From Prolixibacteraceae bacterium (GTDB taxonomy: Bacteria; Bacteroidota; Bacteroidia; Bacteroidales; Prolixibacteraceae), in contig JACMKG010000275.1 in the NCBI GenBank assembly GCA_014380255.1, forward strand, positions 1 to 8,189: a stretch of DNA of 8,189 nucleotides, read 5' to 3'. The first letter of the stretch is position 1. Each line of letters starts with the position of its first letter. Below the pieces are notes generated by a model. It worked only from the letters and a program-made list of their open reading frames with translations, was not told where the DNA came from and did no database searches. The position numbers were made by a program, and so were the translations under genes. This document shows positions 2,770 through 8,129 of the stretch, one piece after another.

Positions 2770-3888
2770 TCAGGCTGTTTTACGGTACCTCCATACAGCA
2801 AGGGTGAGAAACGTGATGCCGATGATACAAAGTGCTGTGAACTCATGAACCAGGTTGCTGAAGCCTGATCCTTTTAAAACAACCATTCGCATAATTCGCA
2901 TAAAATGATACACCGGATTGGCCTCATTGACAATCTGAGCCCAGTGGGGCATGCTTTCCACCGGGGTGAAGATACCTCCCATGAGGATAAAAATCATCAT
3001 AAAGAAGTAGGTCACGAACATTACCTGCTGTTGGGTATCTGCTAAGGTGGAAATAAAAAGGCCAAGGCCCAGGATTCCTATCAGGTATAAGGTGGCAAGT
3101 CCAAAGACTAGCCATAAACTACCCACAACAGGCAGATCAAATACCACGCGGGCAATGAGCAATCCGAAGGCAAGGTCAAAAAGGGCGATGACGATAAAAG
3201 GTATCAGCTTGCCGGTAATAAAATGTATTTTTTTGATTGGGGTGACGTTCAGCTGCTCAATGGTGCCCAGTTCCTTTTCCTTGACAAGGCTCATGCCTGA
3301 CAAGAACAAGCCTATAAGGGTTACCAGGATGGCCAGAATGCCCGGTGCCATATACCATTTATACTCCAGTTCGGTGTTGTACCAAAAGCGTGAAACAGCG
3401 TCTACCTGGGAGGGGGCCTTAAACTCTGGAAGGCCTTTCCAGTCGGCAATAATGTTCTTGTTGAAATCACGAATAACCGAGGCTGCATACGAATAACTCA
3501 GCTGGGCTCCCGATCCGTCAATGGCATTGATCAGCAGCTGAAGTGAAGCCTTGTCGTGACGCAGGAGGTTACGTTCAAACTCTGCAGGGATAACCAAAAC
3601 CATGTTGGCCTTGTTAGCCAAAAGCTCTTTTTCTCCTTCTTCCGGATTGAAGGAAGCATTGCTGATGGTGAAAAAGGGAGAGGCATCCAGCTTGGAGGCC
3701 AGCTTGCGCGAGGTGGCCGACAGATCCTTGTCCACCAGGTAAATGTTGATATTCTTGATATCATAGGTGGCTGCGTAAACCAAAATCAGCATTTGCAGCA
3801 AGGGAACCATCAAAATCATCCGAAGCATGGTCTTATTGCGCTTGACCTGGATGAACTCTTTCTGGATAACGTAGAATATTGTTTTCAT
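2770..3888 (-). CDS. ABC-2 type export permease (YbhS/YbhR-like), second of the pair
   Basis: This 372-residue inner-membrane subunit has the classical ABC-2 layout of drug or multidrug exporters of the YbhFSR class. One membrane segment lies near the N-terminus (about 22-40), then a periplasmic domain of about 135 residues, then five segments (about 179-198, 229-249, 256-280, 288-309, 350-366). The coupling motif LVKEKELGTIEQLNVTP (201-217) follows the second segment, as usual. The N-terminus KEFIQVKRNKTMLRMIL resembles the KE..hi.RDp.t segment of the family. It is the last gene of the operon and would pair with the permease at 4604-5713 and with the two ATPases. It is separated from permease 1 by a four-helix-bundle gene and nonamer repeats. 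Its start (ATG at 3888) lies only a few bases from the repeat, and its leader resembles that of the four-helix gene. The substrate cannot be told from sequence. Confidence 0.93.
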   Translation of the reverse strand: MKTIFYVIQKEFIQVKRNKTMLRMILMVPLLQMLILVYAATYDIKNINIYLVDKDLSATSRKLASKLDASPFFTISNASFNPEEGEKELLANKANMVLVIPAEFERNLLRHDKASLQLLINAIDGSGAQLSYSYAASVIRDFNKNIIADWKGLPEFKAPSQVDAVSRFWYNTELEYKWYMAPGILAILVTLIGLFLSGMSLVKEKELGTIEQLNVTPIKKIHFITGKLIPFIVIALFDLAFGLLIARVVFDLPVVGSLWLVFGLATLYLIGILGLGLFISTLADTQQQVMFVTYFFMMIFILMGGIFTPVESMPHWAQIVNEANPVYHFMRIMRMVVLKGSGFSNLVHEFTALCIIGITFLTLAVWRYRKTA

Positions 3889-3892
3889 AAAT

Positions 3893-4128
3893 AAGTGCCT
3901 AAAGTTATAAGTGCCTAAAGTGCCTAAAGTGCCTAAAGTTCGGAGTGCCTAAAATGCCTAAAGTGGAGTGCGCGATAAGTAATTTAGGTACTTCCCTTTC
4001 CATAAATGCTAAGTTAGAAGTTATAAATGCCTAGAGTGCCTAAAGTGCCTGGAGTGTGTGATAAGTACTTTAGGCACTCCCCACTTTAGGCACTTCGAAC
4101 TTTTTTGCTTTAGGCACTCCGAACTTCT
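3893..4128. repeat. AGTGCCTAA nonamer array, direct then inverted
   Basis: The whole spacer between permease 2 and the four-helix-bundle gene consists of degenerate 9-base units. They read GTGCCTAAA on the plus strand from 3895 to about 4053 and TTTAGGCAC from 4068 to the right end. Inverted pairs include 3927-3953 with 4069-4095 (25 of 27 matching) and 3936-3953 with 4109-4126 (18 of 18). The array enters the end of the four-helix gene, whose stop codon TAA is part of a unit. Confidence 0.88.
3965..4040 (-). repeat. ORF-less copy of the four-helix-bundle cassette
   Basis: Two segments that flank the neighbouring four-helix gene recur here side by side with nothing between them. The segment 3996-4040 matches the gene's leader and first codons (4474-4518) at 39 of 45 bases, including the ATGGAAA start. 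The segment 3965-3996 matches the sequence past the gene's end (4051-4082) at 27 of 32 bases. About 390 bp containing the gene are therefore absent in this copy. About two thirds of the leader match lies outside the nonamer units, so chance alignment of the repeats does not explain it. Confidence 0.7.
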
Positions 4129-4560
4129 TTCATCTTTTTCCCAATGGAAGTGAATATTGCCAATAATTCTATAGCTTCTGCCTCAAGGATTTTAATTTCT
4201 TTGATTTCCAGCCATTTGAGTTCTCCAATTATCTCGAGCCAGTAAACGGTTTCGCTTGCCTCACTTTCGGTAATACTTATTTTATTGGAGAAATCAGCTT
4301 TACTTCTGGATCTGTTTGCTTCACGATAATTGGCACCCACGCTTGTCCCTGATTTTGTAATCTGATTTCGGATTACCCTTCCCTCGGGAGTATTGGGCAA
4401 TAATGAAGACATTTTTATAATTGTTATGGCAAAAGTCTTTGTTCTCTTTTCCAGCTGTTTGGCAAATTCTTTGTTTTCCATAAAATTTAAGTTTGAAGTT
4501 ATAAGTGCCTAGAGTGCCTAGAGTGCCTAGAGTGCGGAGTGCCTAAAGTTCGAAGTGCCT
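4088..4560 (-). other. Putative four-helix-bundle cassette enclosed by inverted nonamer arms
   Basis: AGGCACTTCGAACTTT at 4088-4103 is the exact reverse complement of 4545-4560. A second matching pair, 4111-4121 with 4535-4545, extends the stem with a small bulge. The four-helix-bundle gene lies inside. In the operon transcript the arms could pair and expose the gene as a large loop. Boundaries are approximate because the arrays are repetitive. Calling it a mobile or excisable unit is inference; no target duplication is proved. Confidence 0.45.
4110..4481 (-). CDS. Four-helix-bundle protein, S23/IVP family (nonamer cassette)
   Basis: The 123-residue protein belongs to the 23S-rRNA-intervening-sequence family, small helical proteins that fold as four-helix bundles and form oligomers. 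Their biochemical role is unsettled; the fold resembles Avd of diversity-generating retroelements. Typical marks are QITKSGTSVGANYREANRSR (40-59), then KADFSNKISITESEASETVYWLEII (61-85) and a helical, acidic C-terminal region. It reads in the operon direction between permease 1 and permease 2 and has no place in a YbhFSR-type transporter. The last residues (RSA and stop) are encoded by a nonamer unit. The start is ATG at 4481, whose leader is duplicated at 3996-4040. The gene looks more A+T-rich than the transporter genes, which fits separate origin. Confidence 0.88.
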   Translation of the reverse strand: MENKEFAKQLEKRTKTFAITIIKMSSLLPNTPEGRVIRNQITKSGTSVGANYREANRSRSKADFSNKISITESEASETVYWLEIIGELKWLEIKEIKILEAEAIELLAIFTSIGKKMKEVRSA

Positions 4561-4600
4561 GCTCAACTTTAGGCACTCCGCACTCTAGGCACTCTAAACT
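4489..4600. repeat. AGTGCCTAG/AGTGCCTAA nonamer array upstream of the four-helix gene
   Basis: Degenerate 9-base units read direct on the plus strand from about 4504 to 4560 and inverted from 4565 to 4597. They fill the space between the permease 1 stop and the four-helix-bundle gene. The array starts only about eight bases past the permease stop codon. Same family as the array at 3893-4128. Confidence 0.88.
4519..4596 (-). other. Perfect 32-bp hairpin between permease 1 and the four-helix gene
   Basis: Bases 4519-4550 and 4565-4596 are exact reverse complements over 32 positions, with a 14-base loop (4551-4564). In the operon transcript this forms a long uninterrupted stem just after the permease 1 stop codon. 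There is no U-tract, so an intrinsic terminator is unlikely. A stem longer than 20 bp is a plausible RNase III substrate or a block to 3' exonucleases. Confidence 0.8.
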
Positions 4601-4603
4601 TTT

Positions 4604-5713
4604 TCATTCCAATCTTATTTTGAAATTCTTAATGCTCAGGGCGATGAACACCAGGGTCATCGATAGCAATATCAGCGTTTCTCGCCATACATATTCAATG
4701 CCGGTGCCTTTAAGCATGATGTTTTTGATGATCACAATGAACCACCTTGGGGGCATTAGAAGGCTGAATATACGCAGAGGCGCAGGCATGTTTTCAATGG
4801 GGAAAATAAACCCTGAGAGCAGAATAGTAGGCAACATCAGGGCAAAGACCGACATGAACATGGCTACCATCTGGTTGGGGGCCACCGTGGAAATAAGGAT
4901 GCCTAAACTTAAAGCCATCAGGATAAAAAGAAAACTCTCAAGCATCAGAAACAGGAAGCTTCCCTTGATGGGAACGCCAAATATAAAATGCCCGATCAGG
5001 ATAATGGTCAACGCGTTAATAAATGAGAGCAGCAGGTAAGGGGTTACCTTGCCAAGCACGATCTGTATGGGTTTTAAAGGCGATGCCAGCAGCACCTCCA
5101 TGGTTCCCAGTTCTTTTTCTTTGCTGATGGAAATGGAAGTCATCATGGCCGAAATAAGCATCAGGATCATGGACATGATACCGGGCACAAACATGTAAAC
5201 GCTTTGCAGGCTCTCGTTGTAAAGCATCCTGACTTCGGTATTAATCTGATGGGGAAGCTGGATATTCTGCAGCTTTTCCTTTTTGATGTAATCATTGATA
5301 ATTCCCGAGGCGTAGCTGGTGAGAATACGTGCCGTATTGGGATCAGAGGCATCGGCCAGCAGCTGTACGTCGGCTTTGCCTTCCCGCTCTAGTTTCTGCT
5401 CAAAGCCTGAACCAAAGGCCACTACCATCTTGACCTGCCCGCTGCGAAAGGCCTCTTCCACATCATCGCCGGGAAGCAATTCCTGCCCCATGACAAAATA
5501 CCCGGATGAAAGAAGCTTGGAGGTAATTTCACGCGTTGTATTATCGTGCGACTGATCTTGTATCGCGATCTTTGAATCCTGAATATCAGAATTGATCACC
5601 TTCCCAAAGAGCAGAAGCTGAATGACGGGCAATCCGAAAATGATGATCATTGTTCGCGGATCACGGAAGATATGTAAGAATTCCTTTTTTAGAAAACCTA
5701 TAAACTGTTTCAT
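4604..5713 (-). CDS. ABC-2 type export permease (YbhS/YbhR-like), first of the pair
   Basis: This 369-residue inner-membrane subunit opens with KKEFLHIFRDPRTMIIIFGL (9-28), the family's usual start leading into the first membrane segment (about 21-38). A periplasmic domain of about 130 residues follows, then segments at about 173-194, 224-246, 250-277, 283-306 and 345-361. The cytoplasmic coupling motif SISKEKELGTMEVLLASPLKP (195-215) is intact. It should form a heterodimeric channel with the permease at 2770-3888, powered by the two ATPases encoded upstream. Family members export drugs, dyes, ions or unknown metabolites together with an HlyD-type fusion protein and TolC. Its leader (5721-5748) is two copies of a 14-base repeat. 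The downstream side carries the perfect 32-bp hairpin. Confidence 0.94.
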   Translation of the reverse strand: MKQFIGFLKKEFLHIFRDPRTMIIIFGLPVIQLLLFGKVINSDIQDSKIAIQDQSHDNTTREITSKLLSSGYFVMGQELLPGDDVEEAFRSGQVKMVVAFGSGFEQKLEREGKADVQLLADASDPNTARILTSYASGIINDYIKKEKLQNIQLPHQINTEVRMLYNESLQSVYMFVPGIMSMILMLISAMMTSISISKEKELGTMEVLLASPLKPIQIVLGKVTPYLLLSFINALTIILIGHFIFGVPIKGSFLFLMLESFLFILMALSLGILISTVAPNQMVAMFMSVFALMLPTILLSGFIFPIENMPAPLRIFSLLMPPRWFIVIIKNIMLKGTGIEYVWRETLILLSMTLVFIALSIKNFKIRLE

Positions 5714-5720
5714 AAGAGAG

Positions 5721-5748
5721 TTTCAAATTCCAAGTTTCAAATTCCAAG
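5721..5748. repeat. TTTCAAATTCCAAG tandem repeat (two copies, 2 x 7 bases)
   Basis: Two identical 14-base units lie immediately upstream of permease 1. Each divides into two related heptamers (TTTCAAA, TTCCAAG). The same theme recurs upstream of ATPase 1 at 8139-8170. Confidence 0.85.
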
Positions 5749-5843
5749 CTGCTGGCAGCTAGATACTGGCTACTGGCAAAACATGCTTCATAGCGTTACC
5801 ACTGATCGAAGCATTTCTTGCTAGCCACCAGAAGCTAGTCGCC
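5749..5843. repeat. Third copy of the GCCAGTA-heptamer hairpin element, opposite orientation
   Basis: The left arm has CTGGCAG, CTAGATA, CTGGCTA and CTGGC heptamers. A core of about 42 bases and a right arm (5820-5843) rich in GCTAGCC/GCTAGTC follow. ACTGGCAAAACATGCTT here is the exact complement of 2719-2735 in the second copy of the convergent-gene spacer, and the core ends in TTCTTGC as expected for the inverted orientation. The core itself contains a 7-bp stem (5783-5789/5808-5814). Confidence 0.72.
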
Positions 5844-5851
5844 TTTTATCT

Positions 5852-5894
5852 ACTGATCATTGCCACTGCCAACTGTGACTGACCACTGACCACT
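5852..5894. repeat. ACTGACC/ACTGATC heptamer array after ATPase 2
   Basis: About six degenerate 7-base units (ACTGATC, ACTGCCA, ACTGTG, ACTGACC, ACTGACC) end directly at the stop codon of ATPase 2. They belong to the family that surrounds the four-helix gene at 6725-7102. This spacer thus stacks three different heptamer families side by side. Confidence 0.8.
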
Positions 5895-6626
5895 TTATTT
5901 TCCATTCCTTGCTATTTTTAAAAATACCTCATCCATATTTCCGGCCCCGTATTGTTGCTTCAGGTTGGCAGGGGTATCCAGGGCTTCAATTTTGCCATTG
6001 TTCATAATCGACACCCGGTTGCAGTACTCAGCCTCATCCATGTAATGGGTGGTTACAAATACCGTTATTCCACGATCTGCAGCCTCGTAGATCAGGTCCC
6101 AGAACTTGCGCCTGGTAATAGGGTCTACGCCCCCGGTAGGCTCATCCAGAAACACAATCTTCGGCTCATGGAAGATGGCTATAGAGAAGGCAAGCTTCTG
6201 TTTCCATCCCAGGGGCAGGGAACCGATCAGGGCATCTTTCGAGGATTCAAGGTTCAGGTTGCGAAGCAGGACATCCTGCCTTTCTTTTCGTACCTTGGGT
6301 GAAATGCCGTATATGCCGGAGAAAAAGCGTATGTTCTCAGCAATGGTCATATCTTCATAAAGCGAAAACTTCTGGCTCATATACCCGATGGTCCGTTTTA
6401 CCTTTTCAGTCTGCGTGTATATATCAAAGCCGCCCACATTTACTTCTCCCGAGGTGGGGGAGGAAAGACCGCACAGGATCTTCATGGCCGTTGTCTTGCC
6501 AGCCCCATTGGCGCCCAGGAAACCGAAGATCTCACCTTGGTAGACTTCAAAGTTCAAATGATCATTGGCTACAAAATTGCCGAACTTCTTGACCAGATCT
6601 TTTACGATAATTACTTTCTCTTCCAT
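5895..6626 (-). CDS. ABC exporter ATPase, counterpart of the C-terminal half of YbhF
   Basis: The protein is a 243-residue nucleotide-binding subunit. It has Walker A GANGAGKTT (38-46), Q-loop Gln85 in GYMSQKFSLY, Walker B IVFLDEP with catalytic Glu162, D-loop GGVDP (165-169) and H-loop His194 in TTHYMDEAE. All are intact. The signature motif is SLPLGWKQK (136-144) in place of LSGGQ. This variant is typical, as I recall, of the second ATPase half of YbhF/RbbA-type proteins. It should pair with the ATPase at 7221-8129, supply the working Walker A, Q-loop and H-loop, and borrow that partner's LSGG. Together they would power the two ABC-2 permeases. It is separated from ATPase 1 by a four-helix-bundle gene with repeats. 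Confidence 0.95.
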   Translation of the reverse strand: MEEKVIIVKDLVKKFGNFVANDHLNFEVYQGEIFGFLGANGAGKTTAMKILCGLSSPTSGEVNVGGFDIYTQTEKVKRTIGYMSQKFSLYEDMTIAENIRFFSGIYGISPKVRKERQDVLLRNLNLESSKDALIGSLPLGWKQKLAFSIAIFHEPKIVFLDEPTGGVDPITRRKFWDLIYEAADRGITVFVTTHYMDEAEYCNRVSIMNNGKIEALDTPANLKQQYGAGNMDEVFLKIARNGK

Positions 6627-6634
6627 GTTCTTTA

Positions 6635-6682
6635 AGTATTCAGTAACAGTGATCAGTGATCAGTCACAGTGTTCAGTGTTCA
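6635..6682. repeat. AGTGATC/AGTGTTC heptamer array upstream of ATPase 2
   Basis: About seven tandem 7-base units (AGTATTC, AGTAACA, GTGATCA, GTGATCA and AGTGTTC twice) lie between the four-helix gene and ATPase 2. The orientation is opposite to the array at 7147-7222 on the other side of the four-helix gene. The remaining bases to 6724 show no further clear structure. Confidence 0.83.
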
Positions 6683-6724
6683 AATGCCCAGAGAATCAGT
6701 GTTGGGTGATAGACAATGATTTGT

Positions 6725-7102
6725 TTATTCATGTTCATCTTTACATCCATATTTTCCTGGGTGAAGAATCATGTAATTTATTAACTTACCTACAACATGT
6801 GCTTGCTGTATCATTGTATTGTGTTTTTCTTTTGCCATGTAATTGCATTCCAATGAGAAATCAAGCCAAACAATCGTTTCACTGTTTTCAGCATCAGAAT
6901 CTGTAAGCTTGCTTATGAAATGCTTTACATACAGACGCTTGCGGTAGGCCTCTGCAACATTTGCACATACGGATCTCGAAGAGCGTCTCATCTGATCGGT
7001 TAGTGCATATTTTTCCTCTTTAGGAAAACTCTTGGAAAGTTCAAACACTTCCATTGCCAACTTAAAACCTTTTTGATAAGCGATTAAATCTTTGAAATCC
7101 AT
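6725..7102 (-). CDS. Four-helix-bundle protein, S23/IVP family (heptamer cassette)
   Basis: The protein has 125 residues and starts MDFKDLIAYQKGFKLAMEVF, the standard opening of this family (W/F-x-x-L-x-x-xQxA). It continues with the central motif TDQMRRSSRSVCANVAEAYR (35-54) and KHFISKLTDSDAENSETIVW (60-79), then a helical C-terminal region. It differs clearly from the other copy at 4110-4481, which has a divergent N-terminus, so the two are separate subfamilies, not a recent duplication. It is co-directional with the transporter genes and placed between the two ATPases, where YbhF-type operons normally have none. No ribosomal RNA sequence surrounds it. Biochemical role unknown; an RNA- or nucleic-acid-linked scaffold role is suggested by relatives in 23S rRNA intervening sequences and by similarity in fold to Avd. 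Confidence 0.9.
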   Translation of the reverse strand: MDFKDLIAYQKGFKLAMEVFELSKSFPKEEKYALTDQMRRSSRSVCANVAEAYRKRLYVKHFISKLTDSDAENSETIVWLDFSLECNYMAKEKHNTMIQQAHVVGKLINYMILHPGKYGCKDEHE

Positions 7103-7146
7103 AGTGTCTCTTTTTTTATGTATATAAATTTTGATAAACCCTTATT

Positions 7147-7222
7147 CTGACCACTTTATTTGAATACTGCCACTGACCACTGATCGGCCACCACTGCATA
7201 CTGAGACTGACCACTGATCACT
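7147..7222. repeat. ACTGACC/ACTGATC heptamer array between ATPase 1 and the four-helix gene
   Basis: Degenerate 7-base units such as ACTGACC and ACTGATC fill this spacer and run into the TAG stop of ATPase 1 (7223-7221). The stretch CTGACCACTTTATTT (7147-7161) is identical to 5886-5900, where it spans the stop codon of ATPase 2. Confidence 0.83.
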
Positions 7223-8129
7223 ATTCCCCGCTTATCATACGATCCATAAACACATCTTCTATGGTGGGCTGAATATCAAACACCTCCAGCTGTGCGTGTT
7301 TATTCTTCAATAAAAAGGCTTCAAATTCTGTGGCCATTACCTCATCCTCTTTGCCTGTTACATGCAGATACTGGCCGAATGCATACGCTGAATCTGTTTT
7401 CTCATAGGAGCGCAGATCCTGAATCAGGCGGTGCATTTCGCTGGATCGAATGGCATATAAGCGTCGGGTGTAATTCTCGATCAGCCCTTTGGGTGAATTG
7501 ATATCCAGAATCATTCCTTTTTGCATCAGCGCTACCCGGTTGCAAAGGCTGGCTTCATCCATATAAGGCGTGGAAACTAAAATGGTAATTCCCTTTTCCT
7601 GCAGCTTTTTAAGCATATCCCAGAATTCTTTTCGTGAAACAGCATCTACCCCCGTGGTGGGTTCATCCAACACCAGGATTTCGGGTTTATGAATCAGGGC
7701 GCAGGATAAGGCCAACTTTTGCTTCATGCCTCCCGAGAGCTTACCTGCCAGCCGATCTTTGAATGGCTCGATCTGTATGTAGATATCTTTGATCAAATCA
7801 TAGTTTTCTTTCACAGTGGTTTTGAATACCGTAGCAAAGAAATTCAGGTTTTCCTCCACCGTAAGATCCTGGTAAAGTGAGAAACGACCGGGCATATAAC
7901 CCACTATTTTTCGTATCTGCTTGTAATCCTTTACCACATCAAGGCCCGCCATGGTTGCCTTACCGTCATCCTGAACGAGCAGGGTCATCAGAATTCGCAT
8001 CAGGGTTGTTTTACCTGCCCCGTCTGGGCCAATGAGCCCGAACAGTTCGCCCTTCTGCACCTCGAACGAGAGGTTATCTACAGCCTTTACCTCTTTATAG
8101 CTTTTACTGATATGCTCAACTTTTATCAT
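7221..8129 (-). CDS. ABC exporter ATPase, counterpart of the N-terminal half of YbhF, with degenerate Q- and H-loops
   Basis: The protein is a 302-residue nucleotide-binding subunit. Walker A is GPDGAGKTT (34-42), the signature LSGGMKQK (131-138) is canonical, Walker B is ILVLDEP with Glu156, and the D-loop is TGVDA (159-163). Two switch residues are replaced. The Q-loop reads YMPGRFSLY, with Gly81 where Gln is expected. The H-loop reads VSTPYMDEA, with Pro188 instead of His. A C-terminal extension of about 80 residues follows the core, as in exporters of this class. As the first transporter gene here it leads the operon order ATPase 1, ATPase 2, permease 1, permease 2. An HlyD/YbhG-type fusion protein is expected upstream outside the window. 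ATG at 8129 is preceded by AAAGAG. Confidence 0.95.
   Translation of the reverse strand: MIKVEHISKSYKEVKAVDNLSFEVQKGELFGLIGPDGAGKTTLMRILMTLLVQDDGKATMAGLDVVKDYKQIRKIVGYMPGRFSLYQDLTVEENLNFFATVFKTTVKENYDLIKDIYIQIEPFKDRLAGKLSGGMKQKLALSCALIHKPEILVLDEPTTGVDAVSRKEFWDMLKKLQEKGITILVSTPYMDEASLCNRVALMQKGMILDINSPKGLIENYTRRLYAIRSSEMHRLIQDLRSYEKTDSAYAFGQYLHVTGKEDEVMATEFEAFLLKNKHAQLEVFDIQPTIEDVFMDRMISGE

Follow-up and report, generated by a model that had tools for sequence, protein, structure and literature searches.

Two S23 genes between the cistrons of an exporter operon as probable cargo of small mobile arm–gene–arm cassettes

Introduction

The S23 four-helix-bundle family is common yet unexplained. 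In the intervening sequences of rRNA a gene of this family lies within a host helix, in its loop and in the sense direction. According to the available part of PMC4990558, the rRNA intervening sequence of Coxiella is excised by RNase III. Elements with S23p in Coxiella and Leptospira and the rRNA insertions of CPR bacteria have a PF05635 protein, complementary ends and a sporadic presence, as do the cassettes described here (PMC4990558 and PMC11270868, both in excerpt). Within the window, the whole stretch of 8,189 nt analysed here, the cassettes have complementary ends and a gene in sense, on what would be a single covering transcript. In contrast to the rRNA elements they lie between protein-coding cistrons, a location inside an rRNA gene being found instead at loci L390 and L395; their arms are degenerate tandem repeats that track the protein subfamily, and S23-less copies are abundant.

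REP and BIME elements are palindromic repeats scattered through intergenic regions and have a cognate gene for a RAYT (TnpA-REP) protein. The cassettes differ from these in lying in sense inside operons, in having subfamilies with their own tandem units and in a protein that lacks a transposase domain: profile scans of both window S23 proteins find no transposase or nuclease domain (in Pfam only PF05635 and PF22296), no Y1 (HUH) transposase and no transposase gene in the cassettes. MITEs resemble the cassettes as non-coding inverted-repeat copies between genes, and one of them, BrickBuilt of Porphyromonas gingivalis (19 copies per genome), is also from Bacteroidota and built of tandem repeats (PMC4596501, excerpt). 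BrickBuilt differs in that its 23-nt repeats are direct, its short terminal inverted repeats are common to copies and it is related to known insertion sequences; the excerpt of PMC4596501 mentions no S23 gene. The TAACTGA repeats of Beggiatoaceae and a few Bacteroidetes are likewise short, tandem and intergenic, but they are direct repeats of one fixed heptamer and no enclosed gene is mentioned in the part of PMC4679880 at hand. S23 is homologous to the Avd protein of diversity-generating retroelements (PMC10053308, excerpt). One of the two window proteins, S23-B, barely passes the cut-off of the bAvd-like family PF22296 (41.8 vs 40), but the score against the Avd equivalog NF033474 is far below the cut-off (31.9 vs 80 bits), and no reverse transcriptase is matched among the eight window proteins scanned.

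The two S23 genes of the window are, with a probability of about 0.75, the cargo of two small mobile arm–gene–arm cassettes between the cistrons of a conserved exporter operon, an inter-cistronic form of the rRNA intervening sequences. No description of such cassettes was found in the literature searched. If S23 is the protein of an operon-colonising element that has repeats of its own, this accounts at once for the gene family and for many arrays of intergenic repeats, and it provides a route by which operons are broken up and messages cut.

The exporter operon and its two S23 genes

All genes of the operon lie on the minus strand: ABC ATPase 1 (7221..8129, PF00005) is the upstream host cistron, followed by ABC ATPase 2 (5895..6626, PF00005), ABC-2 permease 1 (4604..5713, PF12698), which served as query for relatives, and ABC-2 permease 2 (2770..3888, PF12698) as the downstream host cistron. 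Among the relatives' loci that span the operon, nearly all preserve the order ATPase-ATPase-permease-permease. The first-pass annotation had described two S23/IVP genes that interrupt this operon, co-directional with it and each enclosed by complementary arms, and the follow-up confirms genes and arms at the stated places. The open reading frame of S23-A (4110..4481, minus strand; PDB relative 2rld) matches PF05635 with 67.4 bits (cut-off 33.8) and TIGR02436 with 83.5 bits (cut-off 24); that of S23-B (6725..7102, minus strand; PDB relatives 2rld and 2gsc) reaches 105.7 and 97.0 bits against the same two profiles. Both lie among the ATPase and permease genes of the same strand, and the arms pair at 16 of 16 positions (4088-4103/4545-4560) around S23-A and at 17 of 18 (6648-6665/7205-7222) around S23-B. 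No Rfam family is matched in the window, which places both genes outside rRNA. A scan of the window for sigma-70-type promoters returns 8 sites, against 9.9 in shuffles, and is uninformative.

The enclosing arms of element A are a slice of longer arrays of the GTGCCTAAA type that lie in both orientations on either side of the gene. The 5′ array (4489..4603, minus strand) holds the arm 4545-4560 and a perfect 32-nt palindrome of its own (4519-4550/4565-4596), upstream of S23-A and stronger than the enclosing pair; the 3′ array (3893..4109, minus strand) holds the arm 4088-4103. The 16-nt complementary run is matched in none of 300 dinucleotide-block shuffles. In the minimum-energy RNA fold the local hairpin is used and the enclosing stem is absent. 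A short piece resembling the start of S23-A, with array directly after it (3991..4003, minus strand), is, going by direct repeat D2 (88% between 3997-4056 and 4475-4534), probably what is left of another S23 copy since deleted.

Element B is enclosed by inverted repeat I3, whose full arms measure 34 nt with 85% complementarity. Its 5′ arm, of the CAGTGATCAGT type (7192..7225, minus strand), overlaps the terminal part of ATPase 1; the 3′ arm lies at 6645..6678 (minus strand). A predicted RNA fold of 6627-7220 pairs these enclosing arms (z -3.4). The longest perfect run inside the spacers is 9 nt, which is reached in 19 of 300 shuffles and is not unusual alone.

Arrays without S23 occur in the window as well, at 2555-2765 and in the spacer 5714..5894 (minus strand), which has CAGT, GCCAG and AAGTTTCAAATTCC types. 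The ATPase gene at 5895-6626 has an arm score of 18.5 because CAGT arrays occur in both its spacers. With an S23-less gene flanked in this way, and arrays that enclose no S23, enclosure would count for little if judged from the window alone; it gains its strength from the comparison across genomes.

Arms and position across genomes

S23 matches above cut-off are found in 50 of 61 relatives and in 78 of the 145 genomes of a CPR set, probably Patescibacteria; in eight relatives there are 6-13 matches per genome. Relatives are defined in part by permease identity, and the loci analysed are part of the PF05635 and PF13366 matches in the genomes scanned. Genes were called with a custom script (codon scores, with S23 or GxxExxY genes forced in by HMM) rather than a standard caller, and errors in starts shift the spacers. 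With identical S23 proteins counted once, and 8 of 90 genes that lack one called neighbour excluded, 82 S23 genes remain, of which 9 have a spacer under 20 nt and are omitted from the arm test.

How often S23 genes sit between arms had been posed as a check by the first-pass annotation, and their spacers are complementary far more often than those of controls. A spacer complementarity score of at least 14 is reached by 0.60 of 73 S23 genes in the window's relatives and by the same fraction, 0.60, of the 42 merged sites. The fractions for comparison are 0.01 of 437 mispaired spacers, 0.04 of 573 other genes and 0.03 of 73 length-matched controls; arms at this score are lacking in about 40% of S23 genes. 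Other Bacteroidota replicate the result, with 0.54 of 37 S23 genes against 0.01 of 216 mispaired spacers and 0.06 of 48 controls, and so does the CPR set, with 0.57 of 14 against 0.01 of 182 and 0.08 of 49. The CPR count of 8 of 14 includes two cases inside 16S rRNA (6 of 12 without them), and some of the genes overlap with the CPR loci of the orientation comparison below. Direct repeats around S23 are in lesser excess (0.19, against 0.07 for length-matched controls). Hairpins without S23 are also common: among the control spacers of one genome a score of at least 14 is found in 0.17 of the 84 co-directional ones, 0.36 of the 22 convergent ones and 0.04 of the 24 divergent ones, and in none of the shuffles.

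Position is equally characteristic. In the window's relatives 81 of the 82 distinct S23 genes lie in sense between two co-directional genes, compared with 1065 of 1627 other genes (Fisher p about 1e-13), and the bias persists at 45 of 46 merged sites and in 37 of 38 cases outside ABC-operon loci. The hosts include unrelated operons, which we take to be sufB–sufC (L242), sdhA–sdhB (L240) and trpD–trpC (L243). The bias is weaker in long loci of other Bacteroidota (17 of 21 S23 vs 57 of 102 others); in those of the CPR set it is 16 of 20 vs 70 of 92, two of the four exceptions being the 16S cases. In 3.3-kb loci, where orientation calls are rough, S23 has same-strand neighbours on both sides in 30 of 40 cases (whole other-Bacteroidota set) and 18 of 26 (CPR). 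The motif TAnnTTTG, presumably a promoter motif, lies upstream of 3 of 80 S23 genes; among control genes it precedes 174 of 901 that are co-directional and 192 of 335 that are divergent. The cassette would have no promoter of its own and would be expressed by read-through, which would account for its place in sense inside operons. Values of pN/pS between 0.08 and 0.22 in eight pairs indicate purifying selection on S23, and its net charge (median +1) is not distinctive.

Arms, proteins and the movement of units

Both arms would be inverted copies of a short degenerate tandem repeat, the unit being a 9-nt GTGCCTAAA repeat for S23-A and CAGT-based for S23-B; a unit that tracks the protein subfamily would imply that protein and arms belong together. 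Arms vary among elements, and at different sites their likeness rises with that of the proteins. A best arm-to-arm score of at least 13 is found in 0.436 of 39 S23 pairs with at least 65% protein identity, 0.163 of 104 pairs at 55-65%, 0.088 of 434 at 45-55% and 0.022 of 2779 at 30-45%, and in a k-mer test of the link none of 999 permutations reaches the observed value. The window's two subfamilies alone are no proof of this link, since GTGCCTA occurs on both sides of six S23-A relatives, five of them at one common site, and all S23-B relatives with at least 70% identity lie in this ABC operon. The motifs GTGCCTA, CAGT..CAGT and CAC[AG][AG]A were picked after part of the same data had been viewed. 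Of 61 genomes, 20 hold the S23-A-type array pattern, with between 1 and 60 matches apiece. An S23-A-like gene is present in 9 of 61 with 1-2 per genome; seven of these nine also carry the GTGCCTA pattern, and genomes G013 and G060 have the gene without it.

In three genomes, copies within the genome are alike over 536, 530 and 534 nt, which corresponds to arm, gene and arm. Inverted ends are thus alike between copies and move as end–gene–end, as in a transposon. Two further pairs show no unit ends: L154 is 67% alike over a span that extends beyond the arms, and in L118 the likeness barely exceeds the gene. A tandem pair (L190, 100% identical) was excluded from this analysis as a possible assembly effect.

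Cassettes would also be lost, or reduced to S23-less hairpins. One spacer compared in 20 relatives exists in filled, S23-less-hairpin, other-hairpin and 6-7-nt versions, and sister species have empty spacers or S23-less hairpins at corresponding sites. The same operon has S23 genes of differing subfamilies in differing spacers, or none at all, and one S23 copy (L288) appears broken. The situation named as contrary in the original annotation, with all relatives carrying both genes between non-complementary spacers, is not what the relatives show. At L299 an S23 copy is followed by a complete S23-less hairpin, an arrangement as compatible with loss through recombination of the arms as with insertion. 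Many S23 sites are common to related species, so movement is infrequent. Taken together, the S23 gene and its repeats point to a mobile element, small and widespread, that has its home within transcripts. Binding of S23 to its own repeats, cutting of the stem by host RNase III in mRNA as in rRNA, the route by which cassettes move and the direction of single changes (gain or loss) are steps that we infer.

Alternative explanations

An element of the REP/MITE kind that acts at the DNA level is a serious contender, only a little short of even odds. S23 together with a host or trans-acting enzyme would recognise the arms as DNA or as a single-stranded DNA hairpin, the sense bias would come only from promoterless cargo that depends on read-through, and RNA pairing would have no role. 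The mismatches in the arms agree with it: G·U does not exceed A·C in 99 S23 elements (86 vs 92) or in GxxExxY arms (28 vs 20, not significant), and no single set deviates significantly (41 vs 61 in the main set, 27 vs 18 in other Bacteroidota, 13 vs 8 in CPR). Arm complementarity could then be kept by DNA-level recognition or by repeat homogenisation. S23-A-type arrays also outspread S23-A genes, much as MITEs outnumber their parents, and arm likeness tracks protein likeness, as the likeness of ends does in transposase–TIR and RAYT–REP pairs. This account has to contend with a protein that lacks a nuclease or transposase domain, with two S23 genes in sense inside 16S rRNA and with the ends of gene runs: read-through would permit the last place, yet an upstream neighbour on the same strand with an opposite downstream neighbour is found for 0 of 82 S23 genes and 227 of 1627 others. 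Possible, though with the odds clearly against it, is an intervening sequence at the RNA level, in which the stem formed by the arms in the operon mRNA would be cut by RNase III, the S23 message would leave, the host messages would be separated and selection would keep the pairing. The excision of the Coxiella element (PMC4990558, excerpt), the sense and internal position and the predicted fold of element B speak for it. So does the better pairing of a species' arms together (15.7) than with those of its sister (13.1; 39 of 57 pairs), an effect confined to proteins below about 70% identity, arms being interchangeable between sister species above it. Among mismatches, G·U would be expected to prevail over A·C in an RNA stem under selection, whereas the two are equal; element A folds into local hairpins; and S23 genes antisense to both neighbours do exist with arms, one of 21 in other Bacteroidota and one in the CPR set (L392, arm score 21). 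The original suggestion of an mRNA counterpart to rRNA intervening elements finds support in protein family, a sense gene between inverted repeats, gain and loss, and a 16S form in two CPR-set genomes; its part on RNA-level excision or processing is so far unsupported, the arms having no G·U excess and the S23-A enclosing stem losing to local hairpins.

It is unlikely that S23 genes inserted into the loops of pre-existing intergenic hairpin repeats that act as favoured landing sites. L019 and L001 do have the first 41 nt of the permease spacer in common with the gene present in one and absent in the other, and S23-less hairpins are frequent; but arm likeness tracks protein likeness at different sites, arm type tracks the gene family (CAC[AG][AG]A in GxxExxY, as detailed below) and copies move together with their arms. 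More improbable still are ordinary host genes in which S23 regulates its operon and the repeats are local regulatory sequences. Purifying selection and sites common to related species would suit them, but they fit poorly with differing subfamilies in differing spacers, or none, in the same operon, with the apparently broken copy and with the unrelated operons that serve as hosts; conserved host genes are disfavoured by this variable presence. Chance, with S23 genes merely lying among ubiquitous spacer arrays, accords with the arrays that flank non-S23 genes in the window and is refuted at this sample size by the control genes and mispairings given above, which leaves it almost no weight.

Occurrence in 16S rRNA and a second gene family

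In the mobile-cassette reading that we prefer, rRNA and mRNA forms would belong together. Inside 16S rRNA, two CPR-set genomes have an S23 gene in sense between similar repeat-built arms (L390, L395), at a position that we assign to a 16S helix. A search with Rfam for an rRNA location gave no match in 18 loci, in most of which S23 is not flanked by co-directional genes. Similar cassettes are inhabited by a second, nuclease-like family, GxxExxY, a parallel to the homing endonucleases that PMC11270868, in the part available, reports from rRNA insertions in CPR bacteria. It is rather doubtful, though conceivable, that S23 and GxxExxY cassettes form one class of mobile elements living in transcripts, in rRNA helix loops and between mRNA cistrons, in which an Avd-like S23 ring would bind to its own stem at the tandem repeats, this stem would be cut from RNA, and the element would spread in sense, via the excised RNA or a DNA copy of it, to transcribed spacers close by. 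On this view, spent remnants of such elements would make up many of the intergenic hairpin families found in these bacteria. A CAC[AG][AG]A-type motif lies on both sides of 21 of 27 GxxExxY genes (12 of 17 merged sites) and of 0.01 of 82 S23 genes. In the main loci GxxExxY provides a weaker replicate of the arm result, with scores of at least 14 in 0.50 of 8 genes against 0.14 of 43 mispaired spacers, and all nine of nine are co-directional with their neighbours.

Two S23 genes within an exporter operon

The exporter operon of the window is read from the minus strand in the order ATPase 1 (7221-8129), S23-B (6725-7102), ATPase 2 (5895-6626), permease 1 (4604-5713), S23-A (4110-4481) and permease 2 (2770-3888). 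The first-pass annotation had placed two S23/IVP four-helix-bundle genes inside it, and both are present, exceeding the cut-offs of PF05635 and TIGR02436; the complementary arms it reported around S23-A (4088-4103 and 4545-4560) and S23-B (6648-6665 and 7205-7222) are found at exactly these positions. In the best reading, S23 elements (gene plus arms) are promoterless cassettes with their own inverted repeats, which would be carried in sense within transcripts, either in rRNA or between cistrons.

The arms of S23-A are a portion of GTGCCTAAA arrays, which occur in both orientations on each side of the gene; locally, the strongest pairing is that of a 32-nt perfect palindrome upstream. In the predicted RNA fold of element A (-234.2 kcal/mol; z -10.1, 20 shuffles) it is this local upstream hairpin that forms. 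In element B the arms (34 nt, 85% complementary) close the predicted fold (-153.9, z -3.4), which one of 100 shuffles equalled. No Rfam family is present in the window. A scrap resembling the start of S23-A, with array after it, lies at 3991-4003, and we read it as the putative trace of a deleted second copy.

A second palindromic element, gene-less, occupies 5735-5850 and 2555-2765, its ends being of GCCAGTAG type and its short core similar; 85% complementarity holds over the 40 nt of 2715-2754 and 5753-5792. Adjoining the operon are a PafA-like alkaline phosphatase (306-1949; 491 bits, under the cut-off of 650) and a PplA-like protein (2016-2549; 64 bits against a cut-off of 325), neighbours that recur in several close relatives.

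Position and flanks of S23 genes

Scripted gene calls over 172 loci (the window, 80 operon loci and 91 regions around S23 genes or control regions) yielded 90 distinct S23 genes. Both neighbours were called for 82 of them: 81 sit in sense with a co-directional gene on each side, and the upstream neighbour of the remaining one is divergent. Among other genes of these loci such a placement is found for 1065 of 1627, and for 110 of 185 of those with 80-170 residues (S23 versus other genes, Fisher ~1e-13). The combination of a same-strand upstream and an opposite downstream neighbour occurs in 0/82 S23 genes versus 227/1627 others. After merging of shared sites the rule is obeyed by 45/46, or 37/38 outside ABC-operon loci. 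It is weaker in long loci of other Bacteroidota (17/21 S23 versus 57/102 other genes) and of the CPR set, probably Patescibacteria (16/20 versus 70/92), where the four exceptions include the two 16S-located genes of loci L390 and L395. In short 3.3-kb loci, with rougher calls, 30/40 (whole other-Bacteroidota set) and 18/26 (CPR) obey it.

In excerpts of PMC5524665, a Flavobacterium columnare table lists guanylate kinase, a four helix bundle protein and nicotinate (mono)nucleotide adenylyltransferase as adjacent, strands not given, with gaps round the middle gene of 35/33 nt in one strain and 35/88 nt in another. Table 5 files the gene of strains 94-081 and ATCC 49512 as a phage element, and within these excerpts the layout is tabulated without comment. 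The position of the four helix bundle gene, with guanylate kinase on one side and a nadD-like gene on the other, fits the inter-cistronic pattern, not a phage element.

How often S23 genes lie between complementary arms, a question raised by the first-pass annotation, was measured by aligning the upstream spacer locally to the reverse-complemented downstream spacer, arms being counted as present at a score of at least 14. This score is reached by 0.60 of 73 S23 genes, against 0.04 of 573 co-directional control genes, 0.03 of 73 length-matched controls and 0.01 of 437 mispairings of S23 spacers; per merged site the fraction is 0.60 of 42. For direct repeats the excess is smaller (0.19 versus 0.07 in length-matched controls). 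Other Bacteroidota give 0.54 of 37 (mispaired 0.01 of 216; controls 0.06 of 48) and the CPR set 0.53 of 15 (mispaired 0 of 82), with 8/14 in CPR long loci, or 6/12 minus the 16S cases (mispaired 0.01 of 182; controls 0.08 of 49). The arms are mostly degenerate short tandem repeats that vary between elements.

The Bacteroidota promoter motif TAnnTTTG stands upstream of 3/80 S23 genes, 174/901 co-directional controls and 192/335 divergent controls; in spacers of 40-200 nt only, the counts are 3/65, 103/563 and 70/117. The protein itself is kept, as pN/pS is 0.08-0.22 across the eight gene pairs compared. One S23 gene is among the differentially expressed genes of F. psychrophilum in the consulted portion of PMC5787105, and thus at least one such gene is transcribed.

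Arms follow the protein subfamily

GTGCCTA occurs on both sides of 6/6 genes at least 70% identical to S23-A, 0/4 at 55-70% and 0/131 below 45%; by eye, most of those at 55-70% retain a 9-nt AGTNNNTA-like unit in their arms. For S23-B, a CAGT motif on both sides is found in 3/4 genes at 70% identity or more, 4/9 at 55-70%, 1/10 at 45-55% and 1/118 below 45%. One common site holds 5/6 S23-A-type genes and most S23-B-type genes sit in the window's operon, so the match is partly common descent.

A fairer test used only pairs of S23 genes at different sites, any homologous neighbour being merged. A best arm-to-arm score of at least 13 was reached by 0.436 of 39 pairs at 65% protein identity or more, 0.163 of 104 at 55-65%, 0.088 of 434 at 45-55%, 0.022 of 2779 at 30-45% and 0.023 of 484 sampled pairs below 30%. 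In agreement with this, arm likeness by k-mers, for pairs with different neighbours, was 0.12-0.14 below 50% identity, 0.17 at 50-60% and 0.21 at 60-70% (0/999 permutations). At orthologous sites, pairing of an arm is stronger with the partner of its own species than across species (15.7 versus 13.1; own better in 39/57 pairs), an advantage that arises from pairs below ~70% protein identity and whose p of 6e-6 is too strong because species are common to several pairs.

Filled and empty spacers in relatives

The nearest relatives of permease 1 are found in Prolixibacteraceae and allied Bacteroidota, and Mangrovibacterium marinum carries a relative of S23-B. Across 80 loci with such relatives, host gene order is kept in nearly all that cover it, and S23 matches occur in 9/80, in varying spacers. 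The spacer between permease 1 and permease 2 was typed by eye in 20 genomes with permease 1 83-89% identical, and operons with and without a cassette, a comparison suggested by the first-pass annotation, are both seen: four genomes carry an S23-A relative there (one copy apparently broken), three an S23-less GTGCCTA hairpin and nine a hairpin of a different unit, TTTACTATTTACCATTT; in two the spacer measures 6-7 nt, and the last two have something else. A filled spacer (L019) and an empty one (L001) have their first 41 nt in common and both retain a hairpin of one and the same unit; L299 has an S23 copy followed by a complete S23-less hairpin. In the single-contig genome G017 (L288/L375) the S23-A copy of the permease spacer is apparently broken, with its arms still there.

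Three genomes carry two alike S23 copies at different places, about 1, 4 and 10 kb apart in G001, G006 and G032, respectively. Those of G001, in adjacent spacers of the exporter operon, are 89% alike over 536 nt, which include 88 nt upstream and 68 nt downstream; the others are 80% (530 nt) and 82% (534 nt) alike. In all three the likeness spans the gene and at least part of the flanking arms, then ends. Gene-less arrays of S23-A type are common: their tandem pattern occurs in 20/61 genomes (up to 60 occurrences; reversed control 0), namely in 7 of the 9 with S23-A-like genes versus 13 of the other 52.

In L282-L301 the ATPase 2–permease 1 spacer shows turnover of other hairpins, of GTAGAGACG..CGTCTCTAC, GGGTTACG and CTCCCC..GGGGAG types.

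The rRNA form and possible recognition of the repeats

In L390 and L395 an S23 gene lies immediately upstream of an Rfam 16S match on the same strand. The 16S 5' end, identified by its sequence, lies further upstream, so that the gene splits 16S near its 5' end. The arms, through TTAACAAATTAACA-type repeats, prolong a 16S stem that is rich in GC. Over aligned parts, the two proteins share 51% identity, and their identity to other S23 proteins is 21-43%; the genome of L390 (G113) has eight S23 matches altogether. L390 also shows an apparent further gene-less insertion with inverted repeats, downstream in the same 16S gene. PF05635 ORFs in CPR 16S and 23S insertions are described in extracts of PMC11270868. 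The window's cassettes differ from rRNA intervening sequences in location, and are for that reason regarded as a variant of these, not as members.

The arm–protein link, together with homology to XCC0516 (2gsc) and Avd, suggests that an S23 ring may bind the repeats of its cassette; XCC0516 is a pentamer of four-helix bundles in the available part of PMC4990558. The same part describes excision of the Coxiella rRNA element by RNase III, and by analogy inter-cistronic cassettes might be excised from RNA. An indirect test of such excision, G·U against A·C in the arm pairs of 99 elements, was negative (86 versus 92, beside 2583 Watson-Crick pairs), and recognition of the repeats as DNA is at least as likely. 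No paper among the matches listed in the open-access literature describes genes of the S23 or GxxExxY kind as cassettes with inverted repeats between cistrons.

GxxExxY cassettes and other arm-flanked genes

Arms scoring at least 14 flank 29/1028 non-S23 genes; by eye, these include missed S23 genes, three of the nuclease-like GxxExxY family (PF13366), one Y1-transposase-like gene and many array neighbours. A PF13366 search matched 43/61 relatives. In 30 fetched loci, 25/27 GxxExxY genes lie between co-directional genes, and arms reach 14 in 0.68 of 25 (mispaired 0.06 of 143; merged sites 10/17); the main loci give 0.50 of 8 (mispaired 0.14 of 43). A CAC[AG][AG]A-type motif stands on both sides of 21/27 GxxExxY genes (12/17 sites), 0.01 of 82 S23 genes and 0.03 of 573 controls.

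In L001, L006, L009, L017, L019 and L302-L307 the exporter operon repeatedly houses S23 and GxxExxY cassettes, which belong to several subfamilies and sit in differing spacers, an effect of uncertain size as the window was selected for it. The ATPase 2–permease 1 spacer of L303 (L198:6813-7184) holds a GxxExxY nuclease-like gene with CACAGAG-type arms. At L122:11158-11796 a palindromic repeat flanks the Y1-transposase-like gene (RAYT-like, by eye) with an arm score of 28.
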